Source: Gammaproteobacteria bacterium 45_16_T64 (GTDB lineage: Bacteria; Pseudomonadota; Gammaproteobacteria; Pseudomonadales; Ketobacteraceae). Taken from it: a stretch of 54,811 bases of DNA. The notes under the pieces are model-generated. The model did not search any database, was not told the origin of the DNA, and saw only the letters and a list, made by a program, of their open reading frames with translations. Below, piece by piece: positions 35,079 to 54,454 of the stretch. The position numbers and the translations under genes were made by a program. Where the stretch lies: the NCBI GenBank assembly GCA_002162955.1, contig MABD01000053.1:8420-63230 (forward strand). Reading direction: 5' to 3'. Position 1 is the first letter of the stretch. Each line of letters opens with the position of its first letter.

Positions 35079-36083
35079 ATGAATCAAAAGAATCTTTCTA
35101 AACCAACAATTAAAGCACTATTTGCCAAGCAGCTGATAGACATTGTCGGAAAGGAGGAATCTAAATACCTTGAACTAAGCAACACTACTTTTTCGAAACT
35201 TGAGTCGCTTGAATACTTGAGTGTTGAAGAACTAAAGGAGTTAATACACTCAATACAAAATCATTTAAATGATGAGATGCTTGGCCTGTTCTCAAAATCC
35301 ATCCCTCTTAATTCATTTCCCACAATATATAGAGCATTGCATTTCATGCCAAATGCGGATCACGCGATTCAGTGGCTAAATGACTATTATGGGTTATATA
35401 GTGACGCCCCTCCGTATGTCATATTTAAAAATAACGAGGAAGTAACCATTAAACTAGATGACCGAGCCAATGCAAACTCAGCGCTCCCCGTCTATAGCGA
35501 AATTCTATTAATATGTTTATATAAAATTGTATGTAGACTTTGCCGGGTTAATTTCCCATTAAAAGAGGTTGGTTTGTCATTTCCAATAGAAGGAATAGAG
35601 AGCGAACTTTCTTATCTTTTTGGGAATAAAAACATCGTAACATCTGAAGTGGCTTACATACGTTTTTCCAAAGGGATTTTAAAACTACCAATATATCCAG
35701 ATGGTGTACCTGATAACAGTTCACTTTATTCCTATTTCCTAACATGGATAGAGGGGGACAATATTGCATTACAAGTCAGAAATATGATCACAAGCAGAGT
35801 TCCGTTGACTTTTCCTACCTTGGAAGAACTGGCCAAAGAATTTGACACATCATCACAGACATTGAGACGAAAACTTTCGGAAGAAGGCAATAGCTATCAA
35901 GCCATTAAAGATACTATAAGAAAAGATAGAGCCATTTCATTGTTAATGAATCCTGCAATACCGATTAAAAATATTGCTCTCGAGTTAGGGTTTTCTGACC
36001 CTGCAGCATTCAACAAATCTTTCAAAAACTGGTTTATGACTACACCTTCTAGCTATAGAAAAAAATACTTAAAGAATGGCTAG
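35079..36083 (+). CDS. AraC-family transcriptional regulator
   Basis: 334 residues. The C-terminal ~100 hold two helix-turn-helices: TLEELAKEFDTSSQTLRRKL and the conserved IKNIALELGFSDPAAFNKSFKNW. The N-terminal ~200 fit the arabinose-binding-like domain of OruR/ArgR-type AraC members. It is divergent from the desaturase and probably controls it in response to a lipid or similar signal (inference). Confidence 0.85.
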   Translation: MNQKNLSKPTIKALFAKQLIDIVGKEESKYLELSNTTFSKLESLEYLSVEELKELIHSIQNHLNDEMLGLFSKSIPLNSFPTIYRALHFMPNADHAIQWLNDYYGLYSDAPPYVIFKNNEEVTIKLDDRANANSALPVYSEILLICLYKIVCRLCRVNFPLKEVGLSFPIEGIESELSYLFGNKNIVTSEVAYIRFSKGILKLPIYPDGVPDNSSLYSYFLTWIEGDNIALQVRNMITSRVPLTFPTLEELAKEFDTSSQTLRRKLSEEGNSYQAIKDTIRKDRAISLLMNPAIPIKNIALELGFSDPAAFNKSFKNWFMTTPSSYRKKYLKNG

Positions 36084-43368: not shown

Positions 43369-45039
43369 ATGAAAAAGAAAATTCTTATCATTGGTGGTAC
43401 GGGAACCATTGGGACGACTGTGGCAACTCTGGCCCATCAGCAAGGTCATCATGTGACGACAATCTCAATAGATGAAAATAACAACCTACCTGCACACATT
43501 ACACATATTGTCGCCGACAAGCGTGCTGGAAATTATTTCTCTATTATTAGCGACTTGCCCCAATTCGACGTTGTCTACGATATCGTGGAATATTCAGTGA
43601 CAGACGCCTTTCAGACGTACACGTTATTTAAGAACAAAACAGACCATATCGTTGTACTTAGTACATCCTTAATCTACGATCGAAGCATATACCCCACTAC
43701 CGCCATATCGGAAAACACCGCGAGTGCAAGTATGGGATGTTATGGCGGTTACGTTGACTCTAAACTCGAAATTGAAGAATTTTGGTCATCAAAGAAAGAC
43801 ATAAACGTCACCCTATTACGTCCATATCATATTTTGGGGAAACGTTCCTTACTGGGAAACCTACCCCTCCATAATCGTGACCCACTCATCGTCGACAGAA
43901 TTCAACGCCAGGAGCGCTTAACACTATTTAATGGCGGAGACTCTGATTTCAATTTTCTACACCCATTAGATTTAGCAGAAACATTCCTTAGAGTGGCCAA
44001 TAAGGCACAGTGCTTTCATCAAGCCTATAACGTAATGAACCCCACAGTTTATTCAGCCAGAGAATATATTACCCGCCTGGGTGAGCTATTGACGGAAACC
44101 GTTCATATCGACACCATCACTTATGAAGAAGCGTATGGCAAGGGCTGGGAGATGACTTTACTCCCTCATTGTTACGATGTATCTAAATTACAGCGAGATA
44201 TAGATTTCGTCCCAACAATTCCTTTGGAAGAAGGGATTCGTGACGCACTCACCTCTTATCCCATCGATATTGTAGATACAAAAAAAATCCCGGTATTTCT
44301 TGCAATGAATAAAGGAGAGAAACCCCAAAAGATTGATTGGATGACAAACAACGCCTTTGAAGAACGATCCAGGGACACCTGGAATAGTGTTTACACAAGT
44401 GGTGATTCATCGCTACTACCTTGGTACGGACATGAAATACACGACACCGTTAAATCGTACCTAAAGGGACTCAACAACAACACTGACACCATTGTCGTCG
44501 GCTGCGGTATTGGTGATACATTACAGAAACTAGAAGAAATAGGGTTCCCTTCAGATAATCTTGTTGGCACAGACATATCGGACTCCGCCATTTCTAAAGC
44601 ACGTAATCGACACCCTCAATTTACCTTCGAAGCAATAGCAACTCAGCATCTAATCGGAATCCCAGACAACACCGACATATTTGATTGGTTAAACCTGCAC
44701 CAGATTTCTCCAGCAGACTTGCCCGCCTACCTAGATTCTATTCGTAAGACAGCATCAAACTATCTACTGTGCTATATATACGATCCTGATGCTAAGGAGA
44801 GAATTTCCTCCTATTCAAAAAATACAGGCTATATCTATATGCATGCCCCCGCAGATATAAAATCATATATGAATGACTTCGAAGTCATAAGAGACTCATC
44901 ATTTGAGATAAGCAGCAACAAGAATGCCGCAACGCAAAAAAACAATATGGTCAAAGTTATTTGGCTAAGAAAACGAGAAGACTACAAAGATATAGTTCAA
45001 CAACTTCTTGTAAACCAACATTTCATAAACACGCTTTAA
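43369..45039 (+). CDS. SDR (NAD-dependent epimerase-like) fused to a SAM methyltransferase
   Basis: 556 residues. Residues 1 to ~300 form an extended SDR: IIGGTGTIGTTVA at the N-terminus, YGGYVDSKLEIE (the YxxxK site) near 125 and LRPYHILGK. After a linker, residues ~330-540 are a class I methyltransferase: VVGCGIGDTLQKLEE, VGTDISDSAISKAR and a WLNLHQ segment. Both reactions on one chain suggest a product that is reduced or epimerised and methylated. I do not know this fusion. A GGGG-type ribosome site precedes the start, and repeat B lies upstream. Confidence 0.7.
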   Translation: MKKKILIIGGTGTIGTTVATLAHQQGHHVTTISIDENNNLPAHITHIVADKRAGNYFSIISDLPQFDVVYDIVEYSVTDAFQTYTLFKNKTDHIVVLSTSLIYDRSIYPTTAISENTASASMGCYGGYVDSKLEIEEFWSSKKDINVTLLRPYHILGKRSLLGNLPLHNRDPLIVDRIQRQERLTLFNGGDSDFNFLHPLDLAETFLRVANKAQCFHQAYNVMNPTVYSAREYITRLGELLTETVHIDTITYEEAYGKGWEMTLLPHCYDVSKLQRDIDFVPTIPLEEGIRDALTSYPIDIVDTKKIPVFLAMNKGEKPQKIDWMTNNAFEERSRDTWNSVYTSGDSSLLPWYGHEIHDTVKSYLKGLNNNTDTIVVGCGIGDTLQKLEEIGFPSDNLVGTDISDSAISKARNRHPQFTFEAIATQHLIGIPDNTDIFDWLNLHQISPADLPAYLDSIRKTASNYLLCYIYDPDAKERISSYSKNTGYIYMHAPADIKSYMNDFEVIRDSSFEISSNKNAATQKNNMVKVIWLRKREDYKDIVQQLLVNQHFINTL

Positions 45040-45103
45040 CGGCAAGTCGGACCCTCCTATACCTCCGAGCATCAACAGTATAGCCTATCCCTGGTAACGA
45101 TTT

Positions 45104-45119
45104 ATTACACCACATTACA
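45104..45119 (-). promoter_or_regulatory. TGTAAT-N4-TGTAAT direct repeat C
   Basis: ATTACA at 45104-45109 and 45114-45119 on the plus strand, in the 296-bp gap between the SDR-methyltransferase gene and the first 230-residue paralog. It is about 217 bp before that start. The gap holds no gene and is AT-rich toward its right end. Confidence 0.55.
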
Positions 45120-45335: not shown

Positions 45336-46025
45336 ATGTACAACGTAACTGCAGAATATTTAACCGGATTAGCAGACAAATTGGCAAACGTAATTACCGC
45401 CCCCACATTTCTCTCCCACATAGAAAAAATACAAAAGTCGAGCGGGCCCGACGAACAATACGCGCTCGCCGAAAAGATCACTCCAGACAGGCTTCGCCAA
45501 GAGGGCATAGAAACACCTGAAGGATTTCGAGTCGTCCCCCGAACTTTTGAAGAACCAGAATACTCATTACAAAACGGCGCACAGTTGCCAGGAAAGGAAC
45601 CAGGATCTGATCGAAATAGTTTTATCAACGAGAGTTATGACCGCTCCTCTTTCCCTGATGAGCCGATCCCTGGTCAACCCGAAGAGATGGCTGCACCAGA
45701 AACCATCGCGAAACACCTGAAAGACGGGCTCTACGACATCGCCGAATTTGTATCAGAAGTACCCTTTCGTAACCTATTGAACGAATTAGCGGAAGTGTCT
45801 CCAGAAGATCGACCTGACTTTATTTTGGACGTTGTGATGAACAACCGGGAACTCGCCAAGAGAGATATTACGGTGCCCGACAACATGACAATCCAACGAT
45901 CCACGTTTCACGATGGTCGACCTACCCTGTTCTGTGTATCCGCGATCACAGCACTTGGATATCCTTGGCGAAAAGTGACATTCACGTTTGACAATGAAAT
46001 CCTAGAAGACAACAAAGCAGCGTAA
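45336..46025 (+). CDS. Duplicated NHLP-like domain protein 1 (unknown family)
   Basis: About 229 residues. The ATG at 45336 is chosen because the product then lines up with the second paralog (MYNVTAEYLTGLAD against MRYTREYFTKLAE). Two similar segments occur in one chain: LRQEGIETPEGFRVVPRTFEEP near residue 50 and LAKRDITVPDNMTIQRSTFHDG near 190. Both resemble the end of the nitrile-hydratase-like leader peptide (NHLP) fold (L..GI..Pe...v). The middle is Pro/Ser-rich. It has no catalytic motif and may bind a peptide leader or be a scaffold (inference). Confidence 0.6.
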   Translation: MYNVTAEYLTGLADKLANVITAPTFLSHIEKIQKSSGPDEQYALAEKITPDRLRQEGIETPEGFRVVPRTFEEPEYSLQNGAQLPGKEPGSDRNSFINESYDRSSFPDEPIPGQPEEMAAPETIAKHLKDGLYDIAEFVSEVPFRNLLNELAEVSPEDRPDFILDVVMNNRELAKRDITVPDNMTIQRSTFHDGRPTLFCVSAITALGYPWRKVTFTFDNEILEDNKAA

Positions 46026-46029
46026 TATT

Positions 46030-46045
46030 ATTACACTTGATTACA
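46030..46045 (-). promoter_or_regulatory. TGTAAT-N4-TGTAAT direct repeat D
   Basis: ATTACA at 46030-46035 and 46040-46045 on the plus strand, starting five bases after the stop of paralog 1. It lies in a gap between converging genes, an odd place for an operator. It may act from a distance or be a chance copy. Confidence 0.45.
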
Positions 46046-46058
46046 TCGAGATAAGGAG

Positions 46059-46100
46059 CGCCGGTCTTAGATCCAAGAACGGCGTTTCCTATTTATTTCT
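46059..46100 (+). terminator. Terminator downstream of paralog 1
   Basis: CGCCG-g-TCTT pairs with AAGA-a-CGGCG over a six-base loop (46059-46084), followed by a T-rich run (TTTCCTATTTATTTC). It overlaps the end of the convergent diiron gene. Confidence 0.55.
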
Positions 46101-47176
46101 TTAAGTAAGTCAACGCCTTGCTTAGACACGAGCTCACTTACCACTTCCAGTGCATCCGACTCACCTTCAAGCGTCTTTACATCAAGCCATTGATCATACA
46201 AATACAGTGTTCGATCCGTCACGATATTGGATTTAATCAATGTTTTAGCCAAACTTCTAAAAACATTCCCTTGCTGTTGCAGCTGAGCTTTCTTATCTTC
46301 AACACTCGAATCGGTCTCATAGCTTTTTTTGACTTCCCGCCAATCTAAACCAATCGAAGAAAACACTAGATGACGCTGCTCAATATCCACGAGATTATTC
46401 ATTAGCTTTTTGAAACAGAGAGCCGCCCAATCTTCAATCTGCAGGTGCTCTTCTTGTGTAATATTTGGGACGGTTTTTTCAGCCCATGTTTTACCGAATT
46501 TATGATGAAAACTTTCATCCGTCATCACTAGCTGTGATATTCGTTTAAGCAAGGGATCTGCACTCATGCTATATATAACGGCAAGCAGCCCCATAGCCAA
46601 ACCCTCCACGAGTATCTGCATACCGATCAGTTTTTTATAGACAAGAGGGGTATCTATCAGTTCATTTAGCAATCCGCCTAACACATCCCCCACTGGATAA
46701 GGGCTACCCCAGCGCGTATTAACGTAGCGACTGAATGCCGTTACATGCCTTGCCTCTTCTCGTGCTTGATTAGCGGCATATTCTTGCGCACCAGGGTCGA
46801 GCAGACTCATGCTCATTTGTGAGCAAAGCATTAACGCTGCCTGTTCACCGTGCAATAATCCAGAAATCATCCAGCGCGTATTTTCGTTAATTAGCTTAAG
46901 TCTCATCTCATCGGAAAGAGACTGTACCTGCACTGTATTTATTTCAGGGAATAATTCAGGAGGCAGTACAAAATCTGATTGGATATCGAACTCTTCTGAA
47001 TAATCGACGTAACGTACATCCATCGGATCCCAAAAGTGATCATTGGTTTTTGCGATTAAGTCGTCAAAAATATCCGATCGATTCGCGTACCGGTCAGTGG
47101 CTATCATATCGTCTAAGTTTGTGGTGTCGGAGGTCTTGTATGCGGAATTAGGCGCTATATCGCCACTACTTTTCAT
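46067..47176 (-). CDS. Ferritin-fold diiron enzyme (AurF/R2-like)
   Basis: About 369 residues from the ATG at 47176, which has AGAAGGA five bases before it (47182 is too close to that site). Four ligand segments are spaced as in R2-like diiron oxygenases: HGEQAAL, REEARHVTAF (ExxH), VEGLAMGLL and DESFHHKFG (ExxH). The opening FWDPMDVRYVDYSEEFD recalls AurF-type N-oxygenases. It would use O2 to oxidise a small molecule or peptide side chain. It follows the small peptide gene in the same direction across a terminator, so the peptide is a possible substrate. Confidence 0.72.
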   Translation of the reverse strand: MKSSGDIAPNSAYKTSDTTNLDDMIATDRYANRSDIFDDLIAKTNDHFWDPMDVRYVDYSEEFDIQSDFVLPPELFPEINTVQVQSLSDEMRLKLINENTRWMISGLLHGEQAALMLCSQMSMSLLDPGAQEYAANQAREEARHVTAFSRYVNTRWGSPYPVGDVLGGLLNELIDTPLVYKKLIGMQILVEGLAMGLLAVIYSMSADPLLKRISQLVMTDESFHHKFGKTWAEKTVPNITQEEHLQIEDWAALCFKKLMNNLVDIEQRHLVFSSIGLDWREVKKSYETDSSVEDKKAQLQQQGNVFRSLAKTLIKSNIVTDRTLYLYDQWLDVKTLEGESDALEVVSELVSKQGVDLLKEINRKRRSWI

Positions 47177-47215
47177 TGGCATCCTTCTTATTATGAGGAA
47201 TTTGTGGACGGTACA

Positions 47216-47242
47216 AACAAAAAACAGCCCCGAAGGGCCGTT
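47216..47242 (-). terminator. Strong intrinsic terminator between the peptide gene and the diiron gene
   Basis: On the minus strand AACGGCCC pairs with GGGCTGTT (one G-U pair) around the stable TTCG loop, followed by a run of six T. It starts 8 bp after the peptide stop. Partial read-through would give much peptide and little enzyme, as is common for RiPP precursor genes. Confidence 0.8.
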
Positions 47243-47250
47243 CTAATACA

Positions 47251-47457
47251 TCAACCCACTGACGCACAGGCCACGCAACCGACAGAAGCGCAGGCGCCAT
47301 GAGTTGCCCCTTCCGCTACGGTTGTTTTGTGAATTTTTAGATCACCGGTATCTACACCGGCCTTACCTAAGGTACCCACTGGATCGTCCATAAAGTCTTT
47401 TGTTAAACCTGCATCTCTAACTTTTTTAAGCGCATCTGATCCTGAGTTATTACTCAT
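47251..47457 (-). CDS. Candidate RiPP precursor peptide with NHLP-like leader and ACASVG repeat core
   Basis: 68 residues from the ATG at 47457; GGAGAAC lies just upstream, whereas the ATG at 47469 has no ribosome site. The leader-like part is ALKKVRDAGLTKDFMDDP then VGTLGKAGVDTGDLKIH, close in pattern to the nitrile-hydratase-like leader family (DP..L..G......v). The last 13 residues are ACASVG-C-V-ACASVG less the final stop: three Cys and two Ser in a duplicated hexapeptide. Four of the six repeated codons differ only at the third base, so the amino-acid repeat seems to be kept by selection. The modification type is unknown. Confidence 0.65.
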   Translation of the reverse strand: MSNNSGSDALKKVRDAGLTKDFMDDPVGTLGKAGVDTGDLKIHKTTVAEGATHGACASVGCVACASVG

Positions 47458-47469
47458 AATGTTCTCCAT

Positions 47470-47784
47470 GAAATATTAAATAAAGTATTTATCGCCATAG
47501 GTTTTTCGACGATTTTTCCAGTATTAGTCAGCACATATACTTTGTCAAATTAACAAATGCTTTTAACGATAAACTAATTAATACGATTAATATTAAATCT
47601 ACATCCATTTATCTTTATCTGTTTCAAATAAAAGATCGAAAATAATTGTCGTGATATCTATTGCTAGCTTTATTATGTACTACCATTATTTCAATTCTCG
47701 TTTCACCAGAATCGTAACGGCTCCTCTACACGGCCGAATTAGAATTAGTCTTAAGGATAACACCAATAAAAAAGGATACTAATC
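47470..47784. other. AT-rich divergent promoter region
   Basis: A 315-bp gap between the peptide gene (minus) and paralog 2 (plus), very AT-rich with runs such as TAAACTAATTAATACGATTAATATTAAAT. No TGTAAT-N4-TGTAAT repeat is present. No ORF of note was seen. It probably holds promoters in both directions; exact boxes could not be fixed. AAGGA lies eight bases before the plus-strand gene. Confidence 0.4.
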
Positions 47785-48507
47785 ATGAGATATACTCGCG
47801 AGTATTTTACAAAGTTAGCAGAAGATTTATCTAACACTGGAAGCCACCCTACTGTCGTAGACAAGATGGTCAAAGTTCGGGAAGCCCCCGATGAAGAGCG
47901 AATCTCTCTTTCCGATGCAGTACACCCCGACGCGCTGAAAGAACTTGGCGTTCCTGTCCCTGATTCTTTTCGTGTTTCTCCACGAACGTTTGAAAAACCC
48001 ACATTTGTTCAAAGCAACGGTGTACAAAACCCAGGGCTAGAGCCCGGTTCTGATGCAGAGTCTTCCTGGAAATCCTATGGCTCCATGCCGAATTCTGCTT
48101 ATGACACCTCCGCTTGGGGAGCAGGTAGCGATGCTTTACCGGAAACGCCGCAAAGCCCAGAGATCATTCGCAAAACTATATACCGAGCCGTTTTGGATAT
48201 TGCAGACCTCGTATTGGGATCACAATTTAGTCAGGCAATCACTGAGATGTATGATCTTCCATTAGAAAGTCGTCCTCAGTTTGTGATGGACGTCTTCCTT
48301 AATAGCGAAGAACTCAATCGCAGAGGCATTGTGATACCAGAGACAATGAACATTCAGCGCTCTACATTTTACGATGGTCGCCCCACGCTGTTCTGCATAT
48401 CAAAAAGAGAACAACTCAGTTACCCTTGGCGAAAAATCACGATCACTTTCGATAGCGAGACTGAAGAAGACGCTCACAATACGCTCGAAGAAATGGAAAG
48501 TTGTTAA
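47785..48507 (+). CDS. Duplicated NHLP-like domain protein 2 (unknown family)
   Basis: 240 residues, a paralog of the protein at 45.3 kb. The two conserved segments are LKELGVPVPDSFRVSPRTFEKP near residue 52 and LNRRGIVIPETMNIQRSTFYDG near 190; the latter continues RPTLFCI and SYPWRKITITFD as in paralog 1. The middle is Ser/Pro-rich and differs. It carries the same leader-like pattern as the small peptide. It is divergent from the peptide gene. Function unknown; a leader-recognition or structural role is inferred. Confidence 0.6.
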   Translation: MRYTREYFTKLAEDLSNTGSHPTVVDKMVKVREAPDEERISLSDAVHPDALKELGVPVPDSFRVSPRTFEKPTFVQSNGVQNPGLEPGSDAESSWKSYGSMPNSAYDTSAWGAGSDALPETPQSPEIIRKTIYRAVLDIADLVLGSQFSQAITEMYDLPLESRPQFVMDVFLNSEELNRRGIVIPETMNIQRSTFYDGRPTLFCISKREQLSYPWRKITITFDSETEEDAHNTLEEMESC

Positions 48508-48528
48508 ATATAACCCACCCTCTATTGT

Positions 48529-48565
48529 GCAAACAATAGCGAGCATCTGTGTCGCCATTGTTTGC
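48529..48565. terminator. Long perfect hairpin after paralog 2
   Basis: GCAAACAAT-a-GCGA pairs with TCGC-c-ATTGTTTGC around a nine-base loop: 13 paired bases with one mismatch. It lies between paralog 2 and the pyruvyltransferase-like gene. There is no T-run on either side, so it may be an attenuator, mRNA processing site or protein site rather than a plain terminator. Confidence 0.5.
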
Positions 48566-48601
48566 AGTCTCAGAATAATAAACTAAAGCACCAGGGCTTC
48601 G

Positions 48602-50041
48602 GTGAACACTATACTTGGTGCAAAATGGATCACCATGGAAAAACAACTTTTAGCACACTTCCAGCGCCTAGTAGAACAACGGCGCGCCGATGCTCTTGGG
48701 TCTACGCTTCGTCACCCTAAAAGCACTACGCCTATTCCCAGAACATTGTTATTAAGTGGCTATTGTGGGTCTGGCAACGTCGGTGCGGATATTCGGATGA
48801 ATGAAATCATCCGTCAAATCCAGCATATTTTTCAACCCAAACAAGTTAAGCTCGCCTACACCAGTCCACAGGCACTACATTACGGTGCTTACAACACCCT
48901 TCCGTGGGAAGCCAGCACCAACGATCCCGACGCCCTCTTTGCGCCATACGATGGCGTCATTGTATGCGAAGGCTCATTGTTTAAATCCCAATTCTCTAAT
49001 GTCATGGCGATTTCCTTAATCGGTGCGCTGGGGTTAGCAGCATCAGAAAACAAAGTCAGTGTCGCCTATGGTGCGGAAGCGGGTAAAATGGACAAGTTTG
49101 TCGCTGAATTTGCTTCCGATCTCTGCAAAGACAGTCTACTCATTGCCAGAAGTGAACCCTCAAAGCGGTTAATTGAAAAGGACCTCAACTTGCCGGCTGA
49201 ACTTGGTGCAGATACCGCATGGACATTTTCCCCATCCTCACCCGAAAAATCCAGAAAATTATTGATGAAGGTGGGATGGAATGGAAAAGACCCGATAATT
49301 TGTGTTGCCCCCATTAATCCATTTTGGTGGCCCGTCCGCCCAGATTTAGAAAAGGCCGCAGCGCTATCTACCTCCGGGGAGTTCAAGGATATTCACCATC
49401 GCTCCATTTTTTTTCATCACGATTCGGAAGAATCTCGGGGGCAGTACCAACATTATATCCAATCCATCGCTCAGGCGTTAAACACTTTTCAGCGTGAGAG
49501 CGGCGGTTTTATCGTCATTGCTGGTATGGAGTCACTTGATAGAACCGCCTGCAAAGACTTGAATAGTTTATTGAAATCACCAGCACCGATATTTATGAGC
49601 GGTGACTATTCAATGTACGATATAGTTAGCGTGCTGCGCCAAGCACATATCATGGTTAGTTCCCGCTACCATGCGCTAGTCACAAGCATACCAGGAGGGG
49701 TTCCTGGCATTGGCATTACCATGGACGAACGTATCCGTAATCTGCAGGCAGAACGTCATGCGCCAGAATGCGTACTAGAAACCGATGCACCCGATTTGCA
49801 GGATAAGCTTATCACCCTGCTACGCCAGGTTCACCAGCACCATCACCAATACACCGCAAACCTTCCTGAATTTATCGAATCCCAGCTTAACCGCATGAGT
49901 AAAATGGGCCAACTTCTGGCGAAGGACGTTACTGAAAAATATCCAGAAATCAACACACCTAACGGACACGAACTTGAAGATTTCTTACCGCCACTACCCT
50001 CAACAATATTGGATCTTCTTTATCAGGGCGTTGCGTCATGA
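48602..50041 (+). CDS. Polysaccharide pyruvyltransferase family protein
   Basis: 479 residues from a GTG (an ATG at 48635 would give 468). SGYCGSGNVGADIRMNEI near residue 52 is the family's opening motif, followed by YDGVIVCEGSLFKSQFSN, ARSEPSKR, and SSRYHALVTSIPGGVPGIG near 370. Such proteins (CsaB, WcaK types) transfer pyruvate from PEP to sugars or act as related transferases. It overlaps the next gene by four bases (ATGA), so it belongs to a three-gene operon. Confidence 0.75.
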   Translation: MNTILGAKWITMEKQLLAHFQRLVEQRRADALGSTLRHPKSTTPIPRTLLLSGYCGSGNVGADIRMNEIIRQIQHIFQPKQVKLAYTSPQALHYGAYNTLPWEASTNDPDALFAPYDGVIVCEGSLFKSQFSNVMAISLIGALGLAASENKVSVAYGAEAGKMDKFVAEFASDLCKDSLLIARSEPSKRLIEKDLNLPAELGADTAWTFSPSSPEKSRKLLMKVGWNGKDPIICVAPINPFWWPVRPDLEKAAALSTSGEFKDIHHRSIFFHHDSEESRGQYQHYIQSIAQALNTFQRESGGFIVIAGMESLDRTACKDLNSLLKSPAPIFMSGDYSMYDIVSVLRQAHIMVSSRYHALVTSIPGGVPGIGITMDERIRNLQAERHAPECVLETDAPDLQDKLITLLRQVHQHHHQYTANLPEFIESQLNRMSKMGQLLAKDVTEKYPEINTPNGHELEDFLPPLPSTILDLLYQGVAS

Positions 50042-51846
50042 ATCAAGCACTTACGACCGAAAATCCTAAAGAACAGCCGTCAGCACTAGCACAAGATAGC
50101 CAGTTTCTTCGAACCACTTTCAAAAATCGTAACAGTATTTGGTGCCGAGTGTTGGTTCAACAACTGCAGACCATAGGTGTCAAGCATGCGGTGCTTTGTA
50201 TTGGCGGTCGATCTGCTGCACTGGCGACTGTTTTCGATACACACCCCGATATTGACAACATGGTGTTTAATGACGAACGATCGGGCGCATTTTATGCACT
50301 AGGCCTCGCAAAAATGTCCAAGCAACCCGTCGCGATATGCACAACATCTGGCAGTGCAGTTGCCAATCTCCTACCGGCTCTTGTTGAAGCGTATGCCTGC
50401 AAAGTGCCTCTTATTCTATTGACCTGCGACCGACCGACGCTGATTCGACATTCCGGTGCCCCGCAATGCACAGATCATCTGGGTCTTTGTGGGGCGAGTG
50501 TAGAAGCCGCTATCGACTTGCCCGATCCTGATGTGTCTGTTGCCGGACTCATTAGCCTTAAAGCGACATTGACGACGCTCTTCAAATACCTAAGCTCGCC
50601 TGACACAGTGGGGCCGTTGCACATTAATATTCCCCAACATGGCCAAGCGACGAGCACTGACCCAGAACTTGACTGGACTGCGCCTGATCTTGAATTGAGT
50701 TGGTTTCTGCCGCCAGTCACACCGCAATATACAACCTACCAACAGCCGGCAAACAAAAACGACAAAAACAGCCAATGGCTTCGCCCATTAGATCTGCGTG
50801 GTGGTATGAAGGGGCTAATCGTCATTGGCCCAGATGCCATGATAGAACCCGACCACATAAAACTATTAGCGGAACAATCCAACTTCCCTGTTGTAGCCGA
50901 TGTATCATCTGAATTAAGGCGGCCCAACACCCTCTCTACCCTCATATGGAACGGGGATATTGTGGTTTCATCTCCAGGCATAATTAGCCTAGCACCCGAT
51001 ATTATTATCCGTGTAGGTGAAGCACCGATCTCTCAATTGATGCAGCGTTATCTAGAATCTCGTCGTTGTCCCGTCGTGTTATTAGGTAGAAAAAAAGACA
51101 CCACGGACTATTTGAATCCAGAAGCCGTTCACTGCCCTACTGCATCCCATGCAATTGAAGACCTCGCTAACGCTCTAGCCACTGGCGATCAATCCTGGAC
51201 AAACCATTGGTTAACGGCGGCAGATTCCGCACAAAAAACAAAAGAAGATTTCCTATCCAGTTTATCGTGGAGCGAATGCCTGGCCGCCCGGAAGGTTTGT
51301 ATGGCGACAGGATTCAGTGTCTTTCACGCAGCGAATTCCATGTCGATTCGTCATGCCAACGTATTCTGTGATGCCAACAATCAGCCACAACGCTTCCTCG
51401 TTAACCGAGGTGTGAGTGGTATAGATGGCACCATCAGCACTTTTCTAGGGGCACTACAATCTTGTTCGGGTCATGGCTTGCTCCTAATGGGCGACCAGGC
51501 CGCAGCTCACGACATTGCTGCCTTACATATCGCGACAGGAACCAAACTGCGGGGCACTATATGCATCATGAATAATGAAGGCAGCGCAATTTTCGATTTA
51601 CTGTCATGTCACACCGTAAGCAATTACACACACACCATTCGCAACAAGCCAAATATGAATTTCGAACGTATCAGCGCTGCTTTTGACATTGCGTATCGGC
51701 GCTGCACAAATGAAGAAGAACTGATTTCTGGTCTTGACCAAAGCCTAGGGCTTGACGCACTGACAGTATTAGAGATTTGCGTACCGCCCGGCTCCCTTCA
51801 AAACGACTTGCCCTGGCTCTATGCTGCCATGAGGATGACACAATGA
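50038..51846 (+). CDS. MenD-like thiamine diphosphate enzyme
   Basis: 602 residues. The N-terminal pyrimidine domain has NDERSGAFYALGLAKMSKQP, where Glu is the catalytic residue, and CTTSGSAVANLLPALVEA. The middle and C-terminal part have NRGVSGIDGTISTFLG and the diphosphate motif GDQAAAHD ... NNEG, all close to MenD (menaquinone SEPHCHC synthase). GDQ replaces the usual GDL/GDG. No other men gene is near, so it may act on another 2-oxo acid acceptor pair in this operon. Confidence 0.75.
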   Translation: MNQALTTENPKEQPSALAQDSQFLRTTFKNRNSIWCRVLVQQLQTIGVKHAVLCIGGRSAALATVFDTHPDIDNMVFNDERSGAFYALGLAKMSKQPVAICTTSGSAVANLLPALVEAYACKVPLILLTCDRPTLIRHSGAPQCTDHLGLCGASVEAAIDLPDPDVSVAGLISLKATLTTLFKYLSSPDTVGPLHINIPQHGQATSTDPELDWTAPDLELSWFLPPVTPQYTTYQQPANKNDKNSQWLRPLDLRGGMKGLIVIGPDAMIEPDHIKLLAEQSNFPVVADVSSELRRPNTLSTLIWNGDIVVSSPGIISLAPDIIIRVGEAPISQLMQRYLESRRCPVVLLGRKKDTTDYLNPEAVHCPTASHAIEDLANALATGDQSWTNHWLTAADSAQKTKEDFLSSLSWSECLAARKVCMATGFSVFHAANSMSIRHANVFCDANNQPQRFLVNRGVSGIDGTISTFLGALQSCSGHGLLLMGDQAAAHDIAALHIATGTKLRGTICIMNNEGSAIFDLLSCHTVSNYTHTIRNKPNMNFERISAAFDIAYRRCTNEEELISGLDQSLGLDALTVLEICVPPGSLQNDLPWLYAAMRMTQ

Positions 51847-52910
51847 ACGAAATAGCCGACCCGATAAAATCCCTGCCCGACATTCAAAGTCTTTCACCTG
51901 AATCTGCGTTAACGTCATCCATCTGGATTCGCAGCAATCTTCGGCCAAAATTACTGAAAGACTTCACGGCACAATTTGACGCTACGCCAACATCAAAAAT
52001 TAGAAGCACTCAATTGGATAGAATCACATCTCAGATTGATCAGCTTGATCACTATGCCGCGACACTTGATCAACGCATTTTTGACAACTCACCACCAACA
52101 CCTGCACAACACTGGAAAGCAGAATATAGCGTACTGCAAAAACAAGGCAATGATTTTATCTCAGCAGAATCCCCGCTCTTCTTTTCTGCTGAATCCTTGA
52201 CTAATGTTCACGGCCCAGTGATGTTATTTCATTTGGCCACACTGGCTGAAGAATTATTGCTCACGGGAGAGCACATCATTAGCTTGCGAAAAGCAATCTT
52301 CAAAAAACTGGTCACCAACGAAATGTCTCTATTCGTGTGTGACGCCGCCAAGGGATTTCCAGATTCTATTGCCGATAAAATCAAACAATCCTCGATCTCA
52401 GGAAAGTTCGCTCTTAATAGTGGCCGAGTATTGAATTTTATCGGTGTTGCCATTCCCAATAAACCCGTAACACGTTTTGCTCATTTCAATTCATTTACCA
52501 TGAACCTAATGCCACCTGGGTTAGAGGTAACACAACAACATCACCTTTTTCGATTACAACTCGAGTCAAAAGTCACCGCACTGGATATTCCCCGCGGTGG
52601 TTTCAGCCCAGCTTCCAGCTTAATGACGATGCTTGATATCTGGATGATTATGATATTAAGCACCCCGACTGAATCCAAGACGCGACTACTCCTAAGCATC
52701 AATAAGCTCGATATTCTACCCGACCCTGAACGTCAATTAATCTCCGGAGTCTCCGCGGAAGTTATTATGGACACCAGTAGATCCCGTGCATTACCCGGGG
52801 GATTACACATGGTACCCACCAAAATGCGCTTTTCTCCTATTGACGATAACTGGTCGCTCGCACAAATTGCGGCTGGGGGACAGCCCTACTACCACTTTGC
52901 CAATCGGTAG
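51843..52910 (+). CDS. Unknown protein, third gene of the pyruvyltransferase-MenD-like operon
   Basis: 355 residues, starting at the ATG that overlaps the previous stop (ATGA). No signal peptide or clear membrane helix. Visible parts are a helical first third, FHLATLAEELLLTGEHIISLRKAIF near residue 140, and a later beta-rich part ending LPGGLHMVPTKMRFSPIDDNW. I recognise no family or catalytic motif. Its coupling to the MenD-like gene implies a shared pathway. Confidence 0.65.
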   Translation: MNEIADPIKSLPDIQSLSPESALTSSIWIRSNLRPKLLKDFTAQFDATPTSKIRSTQLDRITSQIDQLDHYAATLDQRIFDNSPPTPAQHWKAEYSVLQKQGNDFISAESPLFFSAESLTNVHGPVMLFHLATLAEELLLTGEHIISLRKAIFKKLVTNEMSLFVCDAAKGFPDSIADKIKQSSISGKFALNSGRVLNFIGVAIPNKPVTRFAHFNSFTMNLMPPGLEVTQQHHLFRLQLESKVTALDIPRGGFSPASSLMTMLDIWMIMILSTPTESKTRLLLSINKLDILPDPERQLISGVSAEVIMDTSRSRALPGGLHMVPTKMRFSPIDDNWSLAQIAAGGQPYYHFANR

Positions 52911-52936: not shown

Positions 52937-54454
52937 TCAGGTCGACTTAGGCAACCCATCACCTTGCTCTATCACACTAAACCCTAGGGAGTCGCTAGAC
53001 TCCTGAAGCAGGGTTGCCATCGTATCTGAGCGCTGACGATTTCTCTCTGCTTTGTTCACCGCCGCATCTCCTGCCAAAATAGATGCCATACAGCCGGACA
53101 CCACTGGGCAAGCCATCGATGTACCACTCAGCTGACCATATAGATTGTCGGGAATCGTGGAGATAACACCCACACCAGGCCCGATATAATCCACCTGCTT
53201 CCCCACAGACGTAAAGGTTGCAAGACGGTTATTCGCATCAGACCCTTCGTCACTGGAGAGATCCACTTCCGGTTGCGAGCCAGTCGGCACAGTACCCACT
53301 CGCCCCATCGCAGAAATAGCCACGGTATTGGGAAAAGCCGCCGGGTAACCAACCTCTCCGCCATAATTATTATTGCCAGCGGCAATGACAAGCGTACCGC
53401 TATTTCTCGCATGCTCGATAGCTTCCTCCAGCAACATATCGTTATCACTGACACCAAGACTTAAATTAAGAACATCGCACTGATCACTAACCCCAACGCT
53501 CACGGCCTTGGCAATATCAAAGCCCGCCGCATCAGAACTTCCTTTTCCAAATACGCGATAAGATCGCAGTGCCACTCCAGGGGCGATGCCATCAATTTTC
53601 CCATACGCGCCAGTGATACCCGCAACATGAGTACCGTGAGGATCACCATTGCTACCATAATCACCCGGGGACTCACCCTTAACAAGGTTCTCACCACCAA
53701 TGAGGTTTAAGCCCTCATGTTGACTGACACCGGTATCCACTATGCCGACAACAATCCCCAAACTAGTATCAAAGCTAGGGTCTGGGTACAGAGTTCGTAC
53801 GCTATCACAGTAATCGGTATTTACCGCATCCATCGTAATATTCATCTGCGCTTGCGTCGCCACGTTAAGTTCATTGACGCCCCAATAAATAGGTAGATCA
53901 CTGGAAGGAATCACCAACAACTGAGGTATTTTTGGCAATTTTTTAGACCACGTTAACGTTGCTCCCCCCTGTGAGTCCGTCGTTCCGGTTGATCCTTTTT
54001 TATTGGCGAAATCAAAATAAGCAATAACAGAAGCATCCGGTATACCCTCTCCCGTCGTAGCATCCGTTACCGTAATCGACAATTTAATAAAATCAGAATC
54101 GACACTTTCTGACAATGTGTCGCTTAATGCCTGCTTTGGTTGCATGTTGCTGGCACCAACTCCACAAGTTCTATAACGACCCGCCTTAACAAGACGAAAA
54201 TCAGACGTCATTTCACTCGCGGCATACTTATCACCCAATATTTTTTCCATTTCGATAAGTTTTGGACCACCCTCACATACAGAATCGATCACTTTAATAA
54301 GGTGCCGGTTCCCCTCAATTTCAATATGCATTTCATGATGACCTGACTCGAGTTCTTGATGGGGAAAGTCGTGCATGCTCCCGCCAGCGTTATCATCCGT
54401 TTTTTCAATAAATCCACTTTTTGGTAGTAACACATAATGATCCGTATCGAGCAT
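52937..54454 (-). CDS. Subtilisin-family serine protease (S8)
   Basis: 505 residues. The catalytic triad is clear: DTG in VGIVDTGVSQHEG near residue 240, HGTHVAG near 273 and GTSMACPVVSG near 445, with the oxyanion Asn in AAGNNNYGG. The N-terminal ~120 residues are a prodomain or binding region, followed by a Big-type beta domain (TVTDATTGEGIPDASV) near 150-200. No signal peptide is obvious. It could mature a peptide of this locus; that is inference from position only. It converges on the MenD-like operon. Confidence 0.82.
   Translation of the reverse strand: MLDTDHYVLLPKSGFIEKTDDNAGGSMHDFPHQELESGHHEMHIEIEGNRHLIKVIDSVCEGGPKLIEMEKILGDKYAASEMTSDFRLVKAGRYRTCGVGASNMQPKQALSDTLSESVDSDFIKLSITVTDATTGEGIPDASVIAYFDFANKKGSTGTTDSQGGATLTWSKKLPKIPQLLVIPSSDLPIYWGVNELNVATQAQMNITMDAVNTDYCDSVRTLYPDPSFDTSLGIVVGIVDTGVSQHEGLNLIGGENLVKGESPGDYGSNGDPHGTHVAGITGAYGKIDGIAPGVALRSYRVFGKGSSDAAGFDIAKAVSVGVSDQCDVLNLSLGVSDNDMLLEEAIEHARNSGTLVIAAGNNNYGGEVGYPAAFPNTVAISAMGRVGTVPTGSQPEVDLSSDEGSDANNRLATFTSVGKQVDYIGPGVGVISTIPDNLYGQLSGTSMACPVVSGCMASILAGDAAVNKAERNRQRSDTMATLLQESSDSLGFSVIEQGDGLPKST

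Follow-up and report, generated by a model that had tools for sequence, protein, structure and literature searches.

Among the known systems close to the locus analysed here, the MNIO (PF05114) RiPPs such as bufferins follow the kind of logic that we propose, in which a Cys peptide is oxidised by an iron-dependent enzyme; MNIO and AurF-type enzymes differ in fold. The arylamine N-oxygenases AurF and CmlI act on small arylamines and are not known to act on peptides. Their metal site is given as 3H/4C in the accessible part of PMC13108848. NHLP precursors (TIGR03793) combine a short DP-x-x-L-x-x-x-G leader pattern with a Cys/Ser-rich tail, and a Gly-Gly motif is described for NHLP leaders in the accessible sections of Haft, Basu and Mitchell (2010, PMC2887384). 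Here, we report a short gene in a window of 54,811 nucleotides (the whole stretch of DNA analysed) that encodes an orphan RiPP-like precursor, with an adjacent AurF-family diiron enzyme as the leading candidate for its maturase.

The gene encodes a peptide of 68 residues (MSNN...GACASVGCVACASVG; full sequence, MSNNSGSDALKKVRDAGLTKDFMDDPVGTLGKAGVDTGDLKIHKTTVAEGATHGACASVGCVACASVG) and, as the first-pass annotation had proposed, it is preceded by a good ribosome site, i.e., a GGAG that ends 6 nt upstream of the ATG. Under a codon model for which 18 window genes served as the training set, it scores 0.339 bits per codon. This equals or exceeds the scores of 90% of the 243 in-frame windows taken from known genes, and 0.08% of 1,215 off-frame windows attain it. 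A promoter-like site lies upstream of the gene, and a terminator-like hairpin starts 6 bases past its stop codon (Table 1). The free energy of this hairpin has a z-score of -2.6 (2 of 200 shuffles fold equally well), and it has the most pairs among the seven terminator-like sites of the region. The numbers of such sites region-wide were at chance level (14 promoter-like sites versus 14.3 expected, and 7 terminator-like sites versus 7.3), therefore only the placement of the two elements and the strength of the hairpin argue for them. No Rfam match was obtained in the window at gathering scores. Given the codon usage, the ribosome site, the promoter-like site and the strong terminator-like hairpin, we are nearly certain that the gene is real. 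The ordinary explanation, a spurious open reading frame or a decayed gene, would fit a peptide for which no homologues were detected, but it is opposed by the codon score, the ribosome site, the hairpin and the silent-only divergence of an internal repeat, and we regard it as very improbable.

Table 1 Features of the peptide locus and the surrounding cluster, in window coordinates.
Feature	Position	Strand	Remarks
SDR epimerase - methyltransferase fusion	43369..45039	plus	Pfam/NCBIfam scan; left edge of cluster
P3, orphan protein	45336..46025	plus	Paralogue of P4 (44% identity); no Pfam/NCBIfam match
AurF-family ferritin-fold diiron oxygenase, candidate tailoring enzyme	46067..47182	minus	PF11583 31.5 bits, cut-off 29.6
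Intrinsic-terminator-like hairpin	47221..47244	minus	10 pairs, UUCG loop, T tract; between peptide and diiron genes
Precursor-like peptide gene, orphan	47251..47457	minus	68 aa, ATG at 47457, TGA at 47251
Promoter-like site TTGACA-17-AATACT	47520..47548	minus	10-of-12 consensus match only; about 60 bases upstream of peptide gene
P4, orphan protein	47785..48507	plus	Divergent to peptide gene; no Pfam/NCBIfam match
CsaB-like polysaccharide pyruvyl transferase family protein	48635..50041	plus	Pfam above, NCBIfam CsaB below cut-off
MenD-like TPP enzyme	50038..51846	plus	TIGR00173 315.8 bits, cut-off 244.2
Orphan 355-aa protein	51843..52910	plus	Start overlaps MenD-like gene; no family match
S8 peptidase, candidate leader peptidase	52937..54454	minus	NCBIfam mycosin, QhpE and PatA models below cut-offs

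The C-terminus of the peptide reads ACASVG-C-V-ACASVG. The two copies of the hexapeptide are encoded by GCC TGC GCT TCT GTC GGT and GCC TGT GCG TCA GTG GGT, so that four of the six codons differ silently, as had been read from the letters alone, and each of them at the third position. When four random substitutions were placed in the 18-mer, all were silent in 0.3% of 200,000 simulations. An exact six-residue repeat within 25 residues arose in 31 of 100,000 shuffles of the peptide, and such a repeat (with at least four different residues demanded) is present in 2 of the 493 six-frame ORFs of ≥30 aa in the window, the peptide ORF included. The duplicated motif has been preserved at the protein level while four of its six codons drifted. 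Having at least three Cys among the final 20 residues does not by itself set the peptide apart (27 of 439 short ORFs have them).

Residues 55-68 (ACASVGCVACASVG) are core-like, with three Cys and two Ser and a CX4CX2C spacing, and residues 1-54 are leader-like. Cys or Ser account for 5 of the last 14 residues, i.e., the peptide has the Cys/Ser/Thr-rich C-terminus that is a feature of NHLP precursors. The CX4CX2C spacing, in a gene that adjoins a predicted iron enzyme and in a cluster with no recognised RiPP maturase among the proteins scanned, would also suit a small Cys protein that stays unmodified and serves the diiron enzyme as a metal-binding or regulatory partner (e.g., in iron delivery), with no precursor role at all. 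A precursor role is not forced, given that the relatives of the enzyme seem to manage without such a peptide; however, a partner needed for iron loading would be expected to be kept by the many relatives, and no related peptide was found in their loci, while an exact tandem hexapeptide looks core-like rather than fold-like. We consider an unmodified protein rather unlikely.

The leader-like part contains a DP...L...G pattern (FMDDPVGTLGKAGVD), which aligns with the DP-x-x-L-x-x-x-G of nitrile hydratase-type leaders. In this respect, the leader- and core-like layout noted at first sight holds, whereas the label 'NHLP-like' is not supported. The peptide had no Pfam or NCBIfam match (NCBIfam was tried at E ≤ 1 and 10), and TIGR03793 did not pick it up in its own genome at E ≤ 10, thus the suggested comparison with RiPP precursor families yielded nothing. 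The sequence at the leader/core border, EGATHGACAS, is without a Gly-Gly motif, and the leader is shorter than those of NHLP precursors as far as these are described in the accessible text of PMC2887384. A home-made leader profile, built from 30 family segments from other genomes (28 belong to proteins that carry a nitrile hydratase-like C-x-x-C-x-C motif), gives the peptide 2.1 bits and ranks it 4 among the 261 short ORFs of the window; 21 of 2,000 shuffles (about 1%) and 63 of 7,264 unrelated short ORFs match this score. Membership of the NHLP family (TIGR03793) was rejected on the model score and the missing Gly-Gly motif, and on the sequence tests made we judge that the peptide is not a family member. 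Its leader may function like an NHLP leader. Among PHROGs, the peptide had one weak match to a family of unknown function (phrog_36857, E 0.22). Another genome of the same class carries a genuine-looking NHLP-type precursor (L136:1330-1779) with a Cys-rich tail ending in CVGNK, and an adjoining open frame there resembles a LanM N-terminus.

A scan of about 85,000 species genomes revealed, at its sensitivity, no relative of the peptide, nor did searches of viral contigs and PDB sequences, and the plasmids gave one match of E = 2. Within the family it was detected in 1 of 15 genomes (itself only), and within the order in 2 of 293, i.e., itself and one doubtful match (G128; 34% identity across 41 residues, E 0.0085) that contains two in-frame stops and that we took as chance. 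In a comparison with 14,023 ORFs from 103 loci, three of them covering the position of the peptide itself, the best match elsewhere had an E value of 2.8; 3,079 ORFs from 43 further loci returned its own locus (L105, L106) and otherwise matches of E 1.2 or worse. The peptide is so far unique to this genome in the collections searched.

The diiron neighbour that had been reported was confirmed: it is encoded by the next same-strand gene downstream of the peptide gene, after a gap of 68 bp, and belongs to the AurF family with conserved ligand-type residues. A structural model of the enzyme, built with 33 relatives (pLDDT 83.5), has AurF (2jcd) as the best solved fold (E 3.3e-4), which is also the only fold match below E 0.001 and is followed by other ferritin-like oxygenases, including CmlI (5hyh). 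A search of PDB sequences gave one weak match, to an aldehyde decarbonylase (E 0.0099). The enzyme thus shares with the arylamine N-oxygenases AurF and CmlI a score above the Pfam AurF cut-off and the closest solved fold, but the identity is 12% and the TM score 0.48. Six residues are invariant in 34 sequences (E112, E142, H145, E192, E222 and H225, numbered without the first Met), i.e., four carboxylates and two His, and their ExxH pattern suggests that they are the metal ligands. The extra His of AurF and CmlI presumably sits four residues before the last Glu ligand, a position occupied here by V218, and therefore N-oxygenation is not to be assumed. H226 is an alternative candidate for a third His ligand.

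A scan of 84,980 species genomes revealed at least 579 coding stretches with relatives of the diiron enzyme, the best 80 of which were kept (78 loci, 45-52% identical). The relatives are frequent and occur in varied neighbourhoods, and no related peptide was found in these best 78 loci, so the predicted homologues beside diiron genes did not appear. At least 400 bases upstream of the enzyme gene are covered in 75 of the 78 loci; with less than 400 bases in L033, L076 and L089 a peptide gene could escape there, and a peptide that had diverged strongly would go undetected in every locus. The 20 largest groups of recurring neighbours include none that is RiPP-like, as judged by eye and recall. 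In the loci of its relatives, the family of the enzyme is not RiPP-linked. Among 369 genomes of the class there was one other good relative (G322, 39% identity), and the peptide was absent from the 2.6 kb covered there. A tree of 112 sequences with midpoint rooting places the enzyme on a lone long branch beside 91 relatives, and 18 paralogues from its own family stand apart (support of the key node, 0.79); given this long branch, the enzyme may have changed its role. In the literature, with subscription papers mostly outside coverage, no AurF-type RiPP maturase was found among the matches listed.

As the first-pass annotation had noted, no LanM, YcaO or radical SAM protein is present among the 10 proteins scanned at 42.2-54.5 kb of the window; the genome, however, holds a TOMM-type cyclodehydratase elsewhere. 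The same 10 proteins include no transporter and no recognised leader-binding domain, and the cluster is in this unlike the NHLP systems described in the accessible part of PMC2887384, having no LanM, cyclodehydratase or ABC transporter among its scanned proteins. We rejected the lanthipeptide and MNIO routes, as the genome (97% complete) has no LanC-like cyclase domain (PF05147) at E ≤ 0.01, and its two MNIO genes lie on other contigs (C37 and C39), where each immediately follows a small gene that encodes Cys. At one MNIO locus (L142:994-2316) this upstream small gene has six EGKCG repeats, like bufferins, and at the other (L141:1134-2301) it has, by eye, a signal-peptide-like start. Both MNIO genes seem to be taken by their own Cys precursors.

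The single YcaO protein of the genome is an 817-aa ThiF/E1-YcaO fusion on contig C57 (L144:7478-9931), and the combination of an E1/ocin-ThiF domain with a YcaO cyclodehydratase that marks TOMM systems is therefore present. The fusion scores 48.1 bits with TIGR03882 (TOMM leader-binding; cut-off 36.9) and 184.4 bits with TIGR03604 (2.9e-54; below the cut-off of 219.25), and its C-terminus is NPYPHPIS. It forms an orphan two-gene TOMM-like locus (L144:6470-9931) behind a heme_bind_FMP-type protein gene (149.2 bits, cut-off 150); in plasmids, the fusion has one half match of 27% identity, and its neighbour none. With a Cys/Ser core in the peptide and an E1-YcaO fusion in the genome, as in thiazole-oxazole peptides with distant precursors, the fusion could act in trans and turn the core Cys and Ser (three and two, respectively) into azolines, with the diiron enzyme as a later tailoring enzyme or unrelated. 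No Cys/Ser-rich precursor candidate passed the ribosome-site and codon filter among the short ORFs of C57:1-45000, and the occurrence in the same genome of a precursor lacking a maturase and a maturase lacking a precursor suggests a pair. Distant TOMM precursors are known from the accessible part of PMC2887384, which supports such a pairing, and in that of PMC4603692 a precursor was identifiable within 10 kb in 46% of clusters. However, the peptide and the fusion are on different contigs and not physically linked, the search for precursors covered 45 kb of C57 and the window with a filter that can miss some, and the resemblance of the peptide to NHLP precursors is weak. We regard maturation by the distant cyclodehydratase as unlikely.

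The remaining genes of the cluster are largely orphans. The only relative of P4 is P3 (own genome, 1 of 293 in the order); neither had a match in viral contigs, and P4 had none in plasmids. The 355-aa protein was likewise without a match in plasmids and was found as itself only in 369 genomes of the class, and the pyruvyl transferase had no relative in plasmids. The AlphaFold model of P4 is poor (pLDDT 51), with a helices-then-strands pattern predicted twice, and it gave no Foldseek match below E 2. An internal duplication of P3 and P4 was rejected as weak (hhalign E 0.0045 with a probability of 7.7%; 94 to 211 of 3,000 shuffles scored equally well). An 18-nt direct repeat (83%) at 45102-45119 and 46028-46045 brackets P3 and could be chance. 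The pyruvyl transferase, MenD-like and 355-aa genes (48635-52910) are joined by ATGA overlaps and likely form an operon of unknown product. An inverted repeat (15 nt, 93%; 48528-48566), just behind P4 and without a T tract, is possibly a regulatory hairpin before the pyruvyl transferase gene. The S8 peptidase has the DTG, HGTH and GTS motifs. The window holds both this QhpE-like protease (52937-54454) and an AraC-type regulator nearest QhpR (35079-36083; 105.5 bits, below the cut-off of 250). The contig ends at the right edge of the window (54811), and the cluster resembles an orphan island located there.

An enzyme of this cluster that is not recognised as a maturase could instead modify the peptide, with the diiron enzyme in another step; candidates are P3/P4, the 355-aa orphan, the MenD-like enzyme, the pyruvyl transferase and the SDR-methyltransferase. 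For P3, P4 and the 355-aa protein, the searches made gave neither a family match nor a relative beyond this genome, and as orphans like the peptide they may form one system with it. hhalign aligned residues 30-58 of the peptide with residues 177-206 of P4, though not significantly (P = 0.57), and a leader module common to the peptide and P3/P4 was dropped; local alignments of the peptide with P3 and P4 fell in another register, and 223 to 527 of 3,000 shuffles (7-18%) were as good. The lack of significance in these comparisons and the possibility that the plus-strand operon is a separate pathway count against a maturase from this set, which we consider quite unlikely.

Across the three precursor readings, the peptide is probably a RiPP-type precursor. 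In the reading that we prefer, to which we assign a probability of roughly one in three, it is modified mainly by the adjacent diiron enzyme. Residues 1-54 would then be the leader and residues 55-68 the core of a precursor transcribed from its own promoter. Most transcripts would end at the hairpin and a minority would read through into the diiron gene, an attenuation that would give much peptide and little enzyme. The AurF-family oxygenase would oxidise core residues (Cys, or C-H bonds of Ser or Val), and the leader would be removed by a protease, for which the S8 peptidase encoded 5.5 kb away is a candidate.

Maturation by the diiron enzyme is favoured by the coding score and ribosome site, by a duplicated core kept in the protein while its codons drifted, by a hairpin that separates the small gene from the same-strand enzyme gene within 68 bp, by an AurF assignment from both Pfam and fold with six invariant ligand-type residues, and by the lone long branch with its possible change of role. 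It is also favoured by the position of the peptide and enzyme genes, which are inverted relative to the paralogues P3 and P4 on either side, as though the pair had arrived as one unit. Counting against it, no homologous peptide was found and there is therefore no co-occurrence; the relatives of the enzyme are frequent, in varied neighbourhoods and without a related peptide; the literature matches listed hold no AurF-type RiPP maturase; the 10 scanned proteins include neither a transporter nor a leader-binding domain, in a contig that ends at the window edge; and the hairpin could equally mark the end of a monocistronic gene. The RiPP-like class with a diiron maturase that had been proposed thus has a real gene and a suitable layout on its side, but neither a homologue nor a related peptide beside the relatives of the enzyme. 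More tentatively still, the locus might represent a new RiPP class in which a ferritin-fold, AurF-family diiron oxygenase co-opted from small-molecule metabolism carries out the primary maturation of a Cys-rich repeat core. Precursor and enzyme would then form a module of two genes within a cluster that is otherwise orphan (P3/P4, pyruvyl transferase, MenD-like enzyme and S8 protease).

If the peptide is unmodified, it would be a minor orphan gene. If the YcaO protein matures it, the precursor would be encoded far from its own maturase, and with either the diiron enzyme or the YcaO protein as the maturase, mining from known maturases would overlook this peptide. If the diiron enzyme matures it, ferritin-like diiron oxygenases would count among the RiPP maturases alongside MNIO, P450 and radical SAM enzymes, and it would be worth screening orphan AurF-type genes for short neighbours.
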